Shown: one piece after another, positions 56,140 through 64,000 of the stretch
Numbering within the stretch: position 1 is the first letter of the stretch
Layout: each line of letters starts with the position of its first letter
Source: Longibaculum muris
GTDB taxonomy: Bacteria; Bacillota_I; Bacilli_A; Erysipelotrichales; Coprobacillaceae
Reading direction: 5' to 3'
DNA length: 64,000 bases
NCBI RefSeq assembly: GCF_004343035.1
Contig: NZ_SMCQ01000001.1
Span: 62,001-126,000, forward strand
Notes under the pieces: model-generated
What the model saw: only the letters and a program-made list of their open reading frames with translations
Databases searched by the model: none
What the model was told of the DNA's origin: nothing
Translations under genes and position numbers: made by a program

Positions 56140-56160
56140 TGATATGATGTTACATTTTTT
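56122..56160. terminator. Bidirectional terminator between HD gene and glmS
   Basis: AAATGTAACA / TGTTACATTT with A- and T-runs on either side. It spans the end of the HD gene and abuts the glmS stop. Confidence 0.8.
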
Positions 56161-57962
56161 TATTCTACAGTTACTGATTTTGCAAGGTTACGAGGTTTAT
56201 CAACATCGCATCCTTTGATACATGCTGTATAATAGGCAATGAGTTGTAATGGAATAGCAACCAAAATAGCTTGTAAAGTAGGAACAACATCAGGTAAATA
56301 ATAAGTGTTTTCAACATTCTTAACTTCTTCACCATGCGTTGTAAGTAAAATAACTCTTGCTCCTCTAGCCATTGTTTCTTGAATATTACTGATTGTTTTT
56401 GCCGCAATATGAGGTTGTGTAGCCACTGCAATCACAACTGAACCATCTTCAATTAAGGCAATTGGACCATGTTTTAATTCTCCTGCCACATAAGCATCAG
56501 CATGGACATAGGAAACTTCTTTTAGTTTTAAAGCCCCTTCTAAAACACTTGCATAATCCAAGCTTCTACCAATGAAATAAGCATCATGTAAATTTTCTAA
56601 CATTTTCGCATAATTTTCAAAAATACTATGATCCTTTAAAATATTTTCAACATACTGTGGAATTGTATTTAACTGTTGAATCAATTCATGATCAATTTCT
56701 TTTCCTAATTCTTGAGCGATATAATAAGCAAGTAAAATCAATAAGACAAGTTGAGTTGTATAGGCTTTGGTTGAAGCCACAGCAATTTCAGGGCCAGCAC
56801 ATGTATATAAAACATAATTGGCATCACGAGAAATAGTACTTCCCAAAACATTTGCAATAGCAATTGTTGTGGCTCCTTTTTCTTTAGCTAAACGTAGTGC
56901 TGCAAGTGTATCAGCGGTTTCTCCAGATTGTGAAACAAAGATAGCTAAAGTTTGTTCATCAACAAGTGGATCGTTGTATCTAAATTCGCTTGCCACTGTT
57001 GCAATCACAGGAAGCTTGGTTGCTCTTTCTAAAACTTGTGAACCACAAAGTGAAGCATGATATGCTGTTCCACAAGCAACAAAATATACTTTATTAAATT
57101 GATGAAAGTCAATATCATTAAGTTCATCAAGAACAATCTTTTGATTAACAATTCTACCTCTCAATGTTTCAGCAATGACATGTGGTTGTTCATAGATTTC
57201 TTTTAACATAAATGTATCATAACCATCTTTTTTCGCTGCTTCTAGGTCATAAGGAACATTGACAAGTTCTTTTACAATAGGTTCTCCTTCATGAGTAAAG
57301 AAGTCAATATGATTTTCTTGTAAAATTGCCATTTCATAATCAGCTAAGAAATAAACATCTTTTGTATATTCCAATAAAGCTGGAATATCACTCGCTGCAA
57401 CATAAGCTCCATCAGCTTTTCCAATGATTAAAGGACTATCTTTTTTAGCAACAATGACTTTATTAGGTTCTAAAGTAGAAACAATGCATAATGCATAACT
57501 TCCTTCAATCCTTTTGAGAACTTTTTTAACTGCTTCAAATAAGTCTCCATCATAATAATCATCTAAAAGATGAACAACAACTTCACTATCTGTTTCAGAT
57601 TGAAAATGATAACCTTTTTGAATAAGTTCTTCTTTTAATTCACGATAATTTTCAATAATGCCATTATGCACTAAAGAAATTGTTTCATCATCATTTGTAT
57701 GAGGATGAGAATTCAAGTTAGATGGAATCCCATGAGTAGCCCATCTTGTATGACCAATACCTACATGTCCTTCCATTTTAAAATCTTGTAATTTTTCTTC
57801 AAGATTTTTTAATCTCCCTTTACATTTGACAGTTTTTAAACCATCTTTTTCAAGTGTTGTTACACCTGCACTATCATACCCTCGATATTCAAGTTTAGAT
57901 AAACCTTGCATTAAAAAGGGTAAAGCAAAACCATTACCGCAATAAGCTGTAATTCCACACAT
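56160..57962 (-). CDS. glmS: Glutamine-fructose-6-phosphate aminotransferase
   Basis: 600 residues. The N-terminal glutaminase starts MCGI (nucleophile Cys2) with GIGHTRWATHG and HNGIIENY. Two SIS domains follow with VACGTAYHA, FVSQSGETADTL, STKAYTTQL and the C-terminal KSVTVE. It makes glucosamine 6-phosphate for peptidoglycan. GGAGG precedes the ATG. Its 5' leader carries a self-cleaving glmS ribozyme, giving feedback control by glucosamine 6-phosphate. Confidence 0.98.
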   Translation of the reverse strand: MCGITAYCGNGFALPFLMQGLSKLEYRGYDSAGVTTLEKDGLKTVKCKGRLKNLEEKLQDFKMEGHVGIGHTRWATHGIPSNLNSHPHTNDDETISLVHNGIIENYRELKEELIQKGYHFQSETDSEVVVHLLDDYYDGDLFEAVKKVLKRIEGSYALCIVSTLEPNKVIVAKKDSPLIIGKADGAYVAASDIPALLEYTKDVYFLADYEMAILQENHIDFFTHEGEPIVKELVNVPYDLEAAKKDGYDTFMLKEIYEQPHVIAETLRGRIVNQKIVLDELNDIDFHQFNKVYFVACGTAYHASLCGSQVLERATKLPVIATVASEFRYNDPLVDEQTLAIFVSQSGETADTLAALRLAKEKGATTIAIANVLGSTISRDANYVLYTCAGPEIAVASTKAYTTQLVLLILLAYYIAQELGKEIDHELIQQLNTIPQYVENILKDHSIFENYAKMLENLHDAYFIGRSLDYASVLEGALKLKEVSYVHADAYVAGELKHGPIALIEDGSVVIAVATQPHIAAKTISNIQETMARGARVILLTTHGEEVKNVENTYYLPDVVPTLQAILVAIPLQLIAYYTACIKGCDVDKPRNLAKSVTVE

Positions 57963-59029: not shown

Positions 59030-59117
59030 GATATGAAAAGGAGGAAATTATGTATTGGAGTGGGTTTACTTAGAAGGATTTAAGTTAGGTAAAAAAATAA
59101 ATGTGAGGAGAAAGAGT

Positions 59118-60566
59118 ATGAAAAAAGTAGAAAAGATTTTACGAGTTGTGCTTTGTTTTTTGATGTTATTATCAACAGTATCATTAAATGTAACAAATGT
59201 TAATGCGACTAATTATTCCCTTAGTAATGATGGGAATTTTTTTATTCGTTTTAAATCAAGTAATCCTAATGCGAATTGGAATACATCATCAGGAATATGG
59301 ACACTTGGAGGTGAAAAAGTTTTTTGTCTCGAATATGATATTGCGACTGAAGTAGGAAATTCATATGTTCCAACTGATGAGTATACAACATATAGTGCGA
59401 GTAAGAAGAAATATGTGAATTATATAGCCTATTTTGGATATGGTTATAAAGGCGATAAGTCTTATGAGAGATATGCTGCAACGCAATTTGCATTATGGAG
59501 CTATGTCAGTAATTATGAGTATTCTTTTGCGGCTTATGATGGAACGATGCCTAATAAATCAGCATCTACGGGAAAAGCTAATCATCGTTTGAATTATGAT
59601 GAATTTATTAAGGATTATAATGAAATCAGAAAATTAGCAAAAGAACATTTTGAAATGAAAAAACCTTCTTTTCATAATCAAACCATTGTTTTAAATGGAA
59701 TTGGAAAAGAAAATGCGACAGTTATTAAAGACAATAATGCAGTGCTTAGTGATTATGATTTATTGAAGGATAGTGGTTTACATATTGAAAAAAGTGGTCA
59801 GTCATTAAAGATATGGACAGATAGTTTGTTTGATCAAAGTCGTTCTTGTCAGTTGATATTAGGGGATGAAAAGCGCCAAGATGAAATGGGGAAACCACTT
59901 GTCTATAGTAGTGGAAAAGCTCAAAAATTATTACGAGCAGGTTTTGGTGATGCAGATTATGCAAATTTTCAAGTCATAATGGGAACCGGAAGTTTGAAGC
60001 TTGCTAAAAAAGATAACAAAGGTCAATATGTACCCCATGTTGAATTTAAAATTTCTTATAACAGTGATATGTCCTCACCACTAGGGACATATACAACTTC
60101 ATCAGATGGAACAGTGACAATTAATGATTTATATACAGGAGCAATTTATATCCAAGAAACAAAAGTTCCAAGTCATTTGATTTTGGATCCAACGATTCAT
60201 AAAATTGAAATAGAGACAGATAAGACAACAACCTTTACCCAAATGAATCAATGGAAACAAGGTTATATTCAAGTTACAAAGTATGATAAGAAAACTAATC
60301 AAGTGGTTCAGCAAGCAGGAGTGGAATTTGATATCTTAAAGGATAATCAATGGATTGAAACAATTTCAACAAATAACAATGGAATTGCTAAAAGTGGTTT
60401 GCTTGATTATGGAACTTATACAATAAGAGAAAAGAAAGCTCCACAAAATTACGTCATCGCAACTTTAACAGAAAGTCAGTTTGTTGAAGAAAATGGAAAG
60501 ATTTATGAGATTGCTATTTATAATGAAGCAGTTGTTGGTGAAATTGAATTGATTAAAGAAGATTGA
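59118..60566 (+). CDS. Thioester-domain SpaA-type adhesin, N-terminal portion ending at an in-frame TGA
   Basis: 482 residues before the TGA at 60564-60566. A signal peptide (1-31, ending VNA) precedes a TQXA thioester domain: C70 in VFCLEYD and Q123 in AATQFALWS are the pair expected to form the Cys-Gln bond used for covalent host attachment. Three or so Cna-B/SpaA domains follow (e.g. VTKYDKKTNQVVQQAGVEFD and YIQETKVPSHL). AGGAG eight bases upstream fixes the start. The frame continues unbroken after the TGA, so the full gene is 59118-62843. Confidence 0.85.
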   Translation: MKKVEKILRVVLCFLMLLSTVSLNVTNVNATNYSLSNDGNFFIRFKSSNPNANWNTSSGIWTLGGEKVFCLEYDIATEVGNSYVPTDEYTTYSASKKKYVNYIAYFGYGYKGDKSYERYAATQFALWSYVSNYEYSFAAYDGTMPNKSASTGKANHRLNYDEFIKDYNEIRKLAKEHFEMKKPSFHNQTIVLNGIGKENATVIKDNNAVLSDYDLLKDSGLHIEKSGQSLKIWTDSLFDQSRSCQLILGDEKRQDEMGKPLVYSSGKAQKLLRAGFGDADYANFQVIMGTGSLKLAKKDNKGQYVPHVEFKISYNSDMSSPLGTYTTSSDGTVTINDLYTGAIYIQETKVPSHLILDPTIHKIEIETDKTTTFTQMNQWKQGYIQVTKYDKKTNQVVQQAGVEFDILKDNQWIETISTNNNGIAKSGLLDYGTYTIREKKAPQNYVIATLTESQFVEENGKIYEIAIYNEAVVGEIELIKED

Positions 60567-60776
60567 GAGGTTGGTCATGCGCAAGGGGATGGAGCTTTAG
60601 AAAAGGCTCAATATGTTTTAAAAGCAGATGAAGCTATTTTAAATCCAAGTGATGGAAGTGTTTTATATGCAAAAGATGAAATCATTTCAATCAAAACAAT
60701 TGGAAATAGTACATGGGGAGATGTAGGACAACAAAATACAGATAAAGAAGCACATATTCACTGGTCAAATTTACCA

Positions 60777-62843
60777 ATGGGTATTTATAGAATTGAAGAA
60801 ATAAAGGCAAGTCATGGATATCTTAAAGACAATAATCATATTGTTCATCTATCGTCTCATAATTCAACTCAAAAAGTTGTTTTAGAAAAGGTGATATCTA
60901 AGGAACAAGTGATAAAAGGAAAACTAGAAGTTGCCAAAAGCGGAAATGATGGTCAAAGTGGTGTTGTTCATGGCTTACAAGGTGTTGAATTTACGATGAA
61001 GCTTTATAGTGAAGTCAAAAGTGTAGGGTGGCAGAAAGCAAAAACTTATGCGATTATCAAAACTGATGAACAAGGACGAGGGAAAAGTGAAGATATTCCT
61101 TTTGGAATGTATTTAGTTAAAGAAACAAAGACTCCAGATAATTATATGGCTGGTGGTGATTTCTTTGTTGATATTGATAAGGATCAAGAAATAGAATATC
61201 GAATGGTGAATAATGCCCCATTTAAGGCATGGTTAAGACTTATCAAAGAAGATGAAAAAGGTCAAAAGATGACTTTATCCCATGCAACTTTTAAGCTGAA
61301 AGATAAGGATGGTCATTTTATTAAACAAAAAGTTGGTCTTAATGAAAAAGAGCAATGGGAAACAAATGAACAAGGAATAGCTGTTTTAGATAATATGTTA
61401 GTACAAGGTGAATATACGATTTGTGAAATAAAGTCACCACAAGGATTTTTATTAGGAGATGAAATCAAGGTTCATATTTCATCTCATCATAGTGATATGA
61501 CTTTTGATGAAGATAATGAACCAATGATTACAGTTAAGATTGTTAATACAAAACCAACTGGTAAATTGATTTTACATAAGAAATTTGAAGGGAAAAAAGA
61601 ACTTATTAAAGGAGCATCATTTAAGTTAATTGCTAATAGTGATGTTATTGATCCAGCTAGTGGAAAAGTGATTTATCATCAAGGAGAACTTGTTCATTTA
61701 ACCGGTGGAAAAGATGGAATATATCAAGTCAATGAAAAGGGAATGCTAGAAATAAAGGGGATTCCATTAGGTACAGGTAAAGTCACTTATAAGTTAGAAG
61801 AAGTGTCTACTTTAGAGGGTTATCATTTATTAGAAGAACCGATTCTTTTTGATTTTGAAATGAAAGATATGACAACTCAGGAATATGTTATTGAAAAAAC
61901 AGTTGAAAATAAATTGACAGAAATAGAATTTTCTAAAACTGATATTTTAGGACATGAATTGTCTGGAGCATATATGCGCTTAATAGATGTTCAAGGAAAA
62001 GTTATTGATGAATGGATTTCAACAGAACAATCACATCTTGTTAAAGGATTAATTTATAATCAAGTGTATACACTGATTGAAGATCAAGCACCATTAGGTT
62101 ATGCAATAGCTTCTTCTATAACATTTACTTATTCAAAAGATATGGAAAAAGTTATTATGGAAGATAAGGTCGTTGAGGTTAAAAAGATAGATAAAGATGG
62201 ACAGATGCTCAAAGGTGCAAAGTTACAAGTTGTTGATACGAAAACGAAAAATATTGTTGATCAATGGATTAGTGATGAGACAAAGCATCGTATCAATGGA
62301 CTTATTGTTGGTCATCAATATCGTTTAGAAGAACTTGAAGCACCTTATGGTTATCATACTTCACAATCTATTGAATTTGTTGTTGATGGTAAGGATAATC
62401 AAAATATTGAAATGATTGATGAACAAATTCTTACAGATATATCTGTTATGAAAATTGATGCTCAAAGTAAAAAGCCAATTCAATCATTAGATTTTGAATT
62501 TGGTTTATATGTGGATGAAGCTTGTACAAAACTTATGGAGGTCATGCGTGCTAATCAGAATATCGGAAATGTTATATTTGAGAATTTACCTTATGGGACA
62601 TATTATATCAAGGAAACAAAGGCTCCTCAGGGATATCAATTGAGTCATGAAGTTAAAAAAATAGTGATTGATGACCAATTAGAAGGCGTAGGAAAAGAAA
62701 TTTGTATTTTGTATGAAAATGAACGTATTCCCAAGGTTGTTGTTAAAACCGAAGATCAAACATCTTTATTTGTTTTATCAACACTTATGATTTTATCAAG
62801 TATTTCAATACTGTTATCTTTAAGAAGAAAAAAGCGTTATTGA
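60777..62843 (+). CDS. C-terminal portion of the SpaA-type adhesin (same frame after the TGA)
   Basis: The open frame runs from 60567, directly after the TGA. The first ATG (60777) has no ribosome site and falls in the middle of a SpaA domain, so this is not an independent gene. The chain holds about seven Cna-B/SpaA repeats with the usual KTD/KxDxG starts and EIKAS, KETKTP, EDQAP, KETKAP ends. It finishes with VVVKTED, a hydrophobic segment and RRKKRY, a degenerate sorting signal. Without readthrough or repair, the adhesin lacks its wall anchor. Confidence 0.8.
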   Translation: MGIYRIEEIKASHGYLKDNNHIVHLSSHNSTQKVVLEKVISKEQVIKGKLEVAKSGNDGQSGVVHGLQGVEFTMKLYSEVKSVGWQKAKTYAIIKTDEQGRGKSEDIPFGMYLVKETKTPDNYMAGGDFFVDIDKDQEIEYRMVNNAPFKAWLRLIKEDEKGQKMTLSHATFKLKDKDGHFIKQKVGLNEKEQWETNEQGIAVLDNMLVQGEYTICEIKSPQGFLLGDEIKVHISSHHSDMTFDEDNEPMITVKIVNTKPTGKLILHKKFEGKKELIKGASFKLIANSDVIDPASGKVIYHQGELVHLTGGKDGIYQVNEKGMLEIKGIPLGTGKVTYKLEEVSTLEGYHLLEEPILFDFEMKDMTTQEYVIEKTVENKLTEIEFSKTDILGHELSGAYMRLIDVQGKVIDEWISTEQSHLVKGLIYNQVYTLIEDQAPLGYAIASSITFTYSKDMEKVIMEDKVVEVKKIDKDGQMLKGAKLQVVDTKTKNIVDQWISDETKHRINGLIVGHQYRLEELEAPYGYHTSQSIEFVVDGKDNQNIEMIDEQILTDISVMKIDAQSKKPIQSLDFEFGLYVDEACTKLMEVMRANQNIGNVIFENLPYGTYYIKETKAPQGYQLSHEVKKIVIDDQLEGVGKEICILYENERIPKVVVKTEDQTSLFVLSTLMILSSISILLSLRRKKRY

Positions 62844-62892: not shown

Positions 62893-64000
62893 TTATAAGT
62901 TTAATAAACGTTTTGTATCTCTTGCAATGACTAATTCTTCATTTGTTGGGATAACATAAACTTTGATTTTTGATTCTGGTTTTGTGATTAAACGTTCACC
63001 ATCACCATTTTCGTTAGCATCATCATCAATGACAATACCTAAAGCTTCACTAACTAATGAAAGAATTTCTTTTCTTGCATAAGCAGAATTTTCACCAATA
63101 CCAGCTGTAAAGGCAATTGCATCACATCCACCTAAAGCAATAAAATATCTACCAATATAAGCAATAACACGTCTAAAGAAAATATCAATAGCAAGTTTTG
63201 CTCTTTCATTTCCTTCATCAGCTGCAGCTAAGACATCTCTAAAGTCACTAGATACACCTGAAACACCTAATAAACCAGATTCTTTATTTAACATACGGAT
63301 AACATCTTTCATATCCATACCAACTTGTTCAATTAAATAATCGATGATTGATGGATCTAAGTCACCACTACGAGTTCCCATCATGATACCAGCTAATGGC
63401 GTGAATCCCATTGAAGTATTGATAGATTTTCCATCTTTAATAGCAGTTAAAGAACCACCTGCTCCTAAATGAGCAACGATAATTTTAGAATGTTCTGGAT
63501 TTCCTAATTTTTCAATAACTCTTTGAGAAACATAGTAATGTGAAGTTCCATGAGCACCATATTTTCTTACTTTATAATCAGTATAGAATTTATATGGAAT
63601 AGGATAAATATAACATTTTGGTTCTAATGTTTGATGGAAAGCAGTATCAAATACAGCAACAGCACCAGCATTAGGAATCGCTTCTTTAAAAGCATAATAA
63701 CCAGTTAAGTGAGCTGGATTATGTAAAGGAGCTAAAGATTTTAATTCATCAATTTTATTAACAACATCTTCATCAATAATTGCTGATTCTTTAAAATAAG
63801 AACCACCTTGAACAACTCTGTGTCCAACACCTTTAATTTCATCTAATGAAGTTACAATATTCTTCTCCATTAATGTATCTAATAATAAATGAACAGCTTC
63901 TTTATGAGTTGGAATAGCTAAAGTACGAACATCTTTTTCACCGTTATATTTGATTGTGAAAATAGAATCTTCCATACCAATTCTTTCAATCACTCCAGAA
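62893..64000 (-). CDS. ackA: Acetate kinase, N-terminus outside window
   Basis: 369 residues visible; the frame is open at the right edge and the usual ~30 N-terminal residues (with the first phosphate-binding loop) are missing. GVGHRVVQGG, VFDTAFHQTL, YGAHGTSHYYVSQR, VAHLGAGGSLTAI, PLAGIMMGTRSGDLDP and FTAGIGENSAYAR are the standard AckA marks. It makes ATP from acetyl phosphate in fermentation. The end matches the family (NEELVIARDT near the C-terminus). Confidence 0.97.
   Translation of the reverse strand, partial: SGVIERIGMEDSIFTIKYNGEKDVRTLAIPTHKEAVHLLLDTLMEKNIVTSLDEIKGVGHRVVQGGSYFKESAIIDEDVVNKIDELKSLAPLHNPAHLTGYYAFKEAIPNAGAVAVFDTAFHQTLEPKCYIYPIPYKFYTDYKVRKYGAHGTSHYYVSQRVIEKLGNPEHSKIIVAHLGAGGSLTAIKDGKSINTSMGFTPLAGIMMGTRSGDLDPSIIDYLIEQVGMDMKDVIRMLNKESGLLGVSGVSSDFRDVLAAADEGNERAKLAIDIFFRRVIAYIGRYFIALGGCDAIAFTAGIGENSAYARKEILSLVSEALGIVIDDDANENGDGERLITKPESKIKVYVIPTNEELVIARDTKRLLNL

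Follow-up and report, generated by a model that had tools for sequence, protein, structure and literature searches.

A single in-frame TGA in a predicted sortase-anchored thioester/SpaA adhesin gene of Longibaculum muris, probably a recent nonsense allele

Introduction

Among described adhesin genes interrupted by single nonsense codons, the inlA gene of Listeria monocytogenes is the closest to the locus reported here. Premature stops in inlA were found in 27% of 849 isolates (PMC10299213), and the truncated product is secreted rather than wall-anchored (PMC6558679). As at the present locus, the PMSC alleles of inlA affect a sortase-anchored adhesin and consist of single nonsense codons whose positions differ by lineage. 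In inlA, however, the breakage is a within-species polymorphism with a measured phenotype, whereas here one allele occurs in each of two species and secretion is predicted; the host is also unlike that of inlA, being related to the gut genus Massilimicrobiota. In their architecture, the streptococcal proteins SfbI and FbaB are comparable, since they are likewise wall-anchored and carry an N-terminal thioester domain with its Cys and Gln residues (PMC4450167); the gene described here differs from them in having a stalk of SpaA repeats and an interrupted frame.

Single in-frame stops in conserved prokaryotic genes have been surveyed and appear to be short-lived, persisting about as long as population polymorphisms do (PMC7918605). 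In that framework an argument for readthrough needs stops shared at one position across species, while the stop reported here is unshared. A 2026 study of tRNA-Trp(CCA) genes with a 4-bp anticodon stem, in which the top stem pair is open, showed that overexpression of such a tRNA in E. coli raised UGA readthrough about 2.5-fold, and the authors caution that the effect at native levels has yet to be assessed; approximately 6.5% of standard-code genomes have a tRNA-Trp of this form alone (PMC13092985). The tRNA-Trp of the genome studied here also has an open top pair and a 4-bp stem, but its mismatch is U.U and UGA remains a stop.

The interrupted reading frame

The window is a stretch of 64,000 nucleotides of the L. 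muris contig NZ_SMCQ01000001.1. On its plus strand, positions 59118-62843 form a frame of 1,241 codons before a terminal TGA (62841-62843), and translation confirmed the observation of a first-pass annotation that one in-frame TGA, at codon 483, is the sole internal stop (Table 1). That annotation had further described the 3.7 kb as free of any other defect, and translation of 59118-62843 indeed revealed no further stop or frame break. Its reading that the two sides belong to the same frame and the same SpaA domain is borne out by codon usage, Pfam matches and alignments of relatives alike. Codon usage favours the adhesin frame in all 100-codon windows on both sides of the TGA, and the chance of meeting 758 open codons in random sequence of the same composition is about 1e-32.

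Table 1. Features of the adhesin locus and its flanks (positions in the window)
Feature	Position	Strand	Remarks
glmS, conserved upstream flank	56160..57962	-	synteny in relatives
Upstream neighbour, 176 aa	58436..58966	+	no match in NCBIfam or Pfam; identity of 77-88% in syntenic relatives
Likely ribosome-binding site GAGGAGA	59105-59111	+	upstream of adhesin ATG; by eye
5' open frame, ATG to internal TGA	59118..60566	+	482 codons; signal peptide (by eye), thioester domain, two SpaA domains
Thioester domain (Pfam TED, PF08341)	59319..59630	+	Cys70 (FCLEYD), Gln123 (QFALW); residues assigned by eye
SpaA domains 1 and 2	59988-60248, 60264-60527 (59988..60527)	+	profile search
Internal in-frame TGA	60564-60566	+	codon 483, near start of third SpaA domain; translation, alignments
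3' continuation, same frame	60567..62843	+	758 codons; seven SpaA matches, sorting signal, terminal TGA
SpaA domain 3	60594..60887	+	recognised on reading the short region across the stop
SpaA domains 4 to 9	60972-61214, 61233-61517, 61563-61895, 61920-62159, 62172-62420, 62436-62678 (60972..62678)	+	profile search
C-terminal sorting signal	62739..62840	+	VVKTED motif (62739-62756), then a hydrophobic stretch and a basic tail
Acetate kinase ackA, partial in window, conserved downstream flank	62893..63993	-	identity of 88-95% in five relatives

The largest contig of the assembly, which is 433 kb long and includes the window, contains 27 pairs of consecutive frames of at least 100 codons each that lie in the same frame. 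In 26 of the 27 a start codon occurs within about 20 codons 3' of the stop, as in neighbouring genes; the adhesin pair alone has no start codon within 60 codons of its stop, and it has the top coding score of all 27 on both sides. An equivalent scan of 410 kb of the genome of L077, a Massilimicrobiota MAG with a broken orthologue (see below), yielded splits less cleanly separable from ordinary neighbours. Restart of translation just 3' of the stop was rejected, as the 60 codons that follow contain no in-frame ATG, GTG or TTG. An in-frame start is first reached with the ATG at 60777, the product of which would be devoid of a signal peptide.

Predicted domain architecture and anchoring

Domains were assigned by profile search against Pfam. 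The first 482 codons matched the thioester profile TED (2.4e-10; 41.2 bits against a cut-off of 22) and SpaA in two stretches (1.5e-27), and the 758 codons 3' of the stop matched SpaA in seven stretches (2.1e-81), giving nine SpaA matches above the cut-off along the whole gene. By eye, Cys70 and Gln123 occupy the places expected for the putative thioester-forming Cys and Gln. The gene is thus predicted to encode a sortase-anchored adhesin in which about nine SpaA domains form a stalk for an N-terminal thioester domain. Four sortase matches were found in this genome, and the sorting signal is missing from the 482-codon short product.

The sorting motif differs among orthologues, occurring as VKTGD, VQTDD and VVKTED. 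That of the window gene, VVKTED, aligns with the VKTGD of most orthologues and with the VQTDD of one intact orthologue. Loss of the usual glycine at the sortase site (VVKTED in the window gene, VVQTDD in L077) was considered as a possible second lesion and ruled out, since the intact orthologue L114 has VQTDD. The acidic residue standing for glycine in an intact gene suggests that the specificity of the sortase is perhaps relaxed.

TGA as a stop codon in this genome

TGA functions as a normal stop in this genome. On the 433-kb contig it is the rarest stop (14%), terminating 36 of the 249 long frames, and in the window it ends 6 of the 48 genes. The gene for release factor RF2, prfB, is present with a match over the cut-off, and a UCA anticodon is absent from all 51 tRNAs read in the draft genome (56 contigs). 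The TGA-ended frames, RF2 and the lack of a UCA-anticodon tRNA together rule out reassignment of UGA to tryptophan. The first-pass annotation had reached the same conclusion from the terminal TGA of the adhesin gene; that codon is present and the conclusion holds, although a terminal TGA alone is weak evidence in comparison with these three lines.

Conservation of the locus and a second broken copy

Both halves have their counterparts within a single open frame in more than ten related genes. The order glmS, small open reading frame, adhesin and ackA was found again in six relatives. It occurs in Massilimicrobiota timonensis An13 (L075), the Massilimicrobiota MAGs L076 and L077, Massilimicrobiota sp. 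An134 (L084) and genome G014 (L086); in G040, a single-contig genome, the comparison covered the side of the same 176-aa frame, which the adhesin (L114) adjoins. The 176-aa neighbour is far better conserved in relatives than the adhesin itself.

The adhesin is intact in five of the seven copies at the locus, those of An13, L076, An134, G040 and G014. The orthologue of L077 is split by a TAA at residue 732, about 200 codons past codon 483 (L077:5074-5076, equal to L110:5074-5076 of G042:C2), and 556 open in-frame codons directly follow it. None of the orthologues aligned has a stop in the column of codon 483, where their frame is continuous. In the alignment, the window gene has a sense residue at the stop column of L077, and L077 has one at the column of codon 483; the two nonsense events are thus independent. 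The window case having prompted the search, the fair count of recurrence is one broken copy in six further ones, and that one comes from a MAG. Two broken copies out of seven are therefore suggestive of repeated breakage at this locus but not significant.

A search with the 3' half of genome contigs that include a single genome of this genus retrieved no sister strain; viral contigs gave no match, and plasmid matches were below 60% identity. A frame break in a paralogue (L063 of G007:C8) was dismissed as a split gene, as it coincides with a run of N and hence with an assembly gap. In another thioester-domain gene (L111, G040:C1:2380800-2390000) the frame breaks after about 285 codons and continues in another frame, followed by a reading frame that looks to be of the HNH/group II intron type; this may be a decayed adhesin that has received an insertion. 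At least one more thioester-domain gene of the family, L111, thus looks broken, which would fit an easy loss of such genes.

Age of the interruption

Between about 4.5 and 6% of random substitutions in the adhesin gene would create a stop, and the absence of a second stop in 1,241 codons limits neutral divergence since inactivation to about 1.8% or less (5% level). In its 3' part the window gene is 40.8% identical to the most distant orthologue, against 38.1-40.3% for the other orthologues, with no acceleration. The divergence bound and the unaccelerated 3' part both fit a recent event. When dN/dS was estimated around the stops, the synonymous sites of the window gene were near saturation and neither stop could be dated beyond "recent"; the 3' part of the L077 gene resembles that of intact pairs. 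Since the inactivation is recent, lack of decay does not separate a dead gene from one used through readthrough.

Interpretation of the interrupted frame

Of the options listed in the first-pass annotation, a very recent nonsense mutation is the best supported, on the grounds that no other lesion is present, that syntenic orthologues are intact, and that an independent nonsense codon has arisen in L077. We consider it probable that the TGA is a recent, ordinary nonsense mutation in a dispensable and repeatedly lost adhesin locus, leaving a secreted and unanchored stub. Translation would stop at codon 483, giving a secreted product of 482 residues with a working thioester domain and two of the nine SpaA domains. 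This stub would have no sorting signal, and the adhesin would consequently be gone from the surface, its anchored form absent; the 3' part would be unmade or made in traces only. By analogy with inlA, on and off alleles may segregate between strains. A conserved Erysipelotrichales adhesin locus thus appears to have been lost more than once by simple nonsense, as inlA has in Listeria, which suggests that an annotated adhesin gene does not imply a protein on the surface.

That the TGA is an error of sequencing or assembly standing in place of a sense codon is quite improbable. A single-base change in an otherwise intact gene has just the appearance that an error would be expected to have; yet no comparable split occurs elsewhere in the 433-kb contig, which indicates that the assembly is not rich in errors, and the region within ten bases of the stop contains neither a tandem repeat nor a homopolymer run longer than three bases. 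The orthologue of L077 is, moreover, likewise broken by a point nonsense codon. The absence of a repeat at the TGA also speaks against slippage as a switching mechanism. Rapid switching is generally plausible in surface proteins, but for a donor-cassette gene conversion the genome offers no second copy of the region, the other SpaA genes being far too different to serve as donors (25-28% identity), and for selenocysteine insertion neither SelB nor tRNA-Sec gave a match over the cut-off in the draft genome of 56 contigs; the matches below the cut-off were judged to be other translation GTPases and long-arm tRNAs. In any of these forms, programmed recoding or rapid switching is exceedingly improbable.

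Readthrough, which the first-pass annotation had listed among its options as a source of a secreted short form and a wall-anchored long form, fared differently in its two versions. A dedicated readthrough site is disfavoured, given that the stop appears private to this genome and that L077 is broken by a TAA elsewhere; no Sec machinery was matched over the cut-off, and the RNA 3' of the TGA is unremarkable (fold z = -1.58), with no Rfam family at or above its gathering score. The version that keeps some probability, though we regard it as unlikely, is a leaky readthrough of UGA by tRNA-Trp(CCA), which would produce a little full-length anchored adhesin beside a major secreted short form. The sole tRNA-Trp found (L180:426-499; G000:C2:89925-89998) has a 4-bp anticodon stem with a U27.U43 mismatch at the top pair, on which ARAGORN and the Rfam alignment agree, together with a 7-nt loop, a retained G24 and no A9C. 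It thus resembles the tRNA that raised readthrough in E. coli, and the rarity of UGA among the stops of the contig points the same way. The 4-bp-stem form is, however, present in 26 of 30 tRNA-Trp genes of the family, a lineage trait unlinked to the adhesin, which is therefore not singled out by it; at the 27.43 pair, these 30 genes (L192-L221 included) have U.U in 18, C.U in eight, G.U in three and A-U in one, that of G014. The TGA is, besides, conserved in no orthologue, the stop of L077 is a TAA, which tRNA-Trp should not read, and UGA still ends 36 long frames. A further elaboration, in which the UGA allele would act as a rheostat, yielding mostly the secreted thioester stub with a small full-length anchored share, so that one gene would supply the cell with a soluble form as well as a surface form, is quite improbable. 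The lineage trait may increase leakiness at all UGA codons of these bacteria, and the family, in which most tRNA-Trp genes are of the 4-bp-stem form, would lend itself naturally to tests of UGA leakiness at native tRNA levels.

An adhesin-sortase frame elsewhere in the genome

On another contig of the same genome (G000:C20), an adhesin and a sortase are joined in one frame of 1,659 codons (L071:1917-6896, minus strand; the same gene in L118). This frame runs from a thioester domain through SpaA repeats to a complete sorting signal (VPQTGD with a hydrophobic stretch and a basic tail), followed with no intervening stop by a second transmembrane stretch and a full sortase domain with the motif TLSTC. 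Either the fusion is real or a stop that once separated two neighbouring genes has been lost; the sortase is perhaps the adhesin's own.
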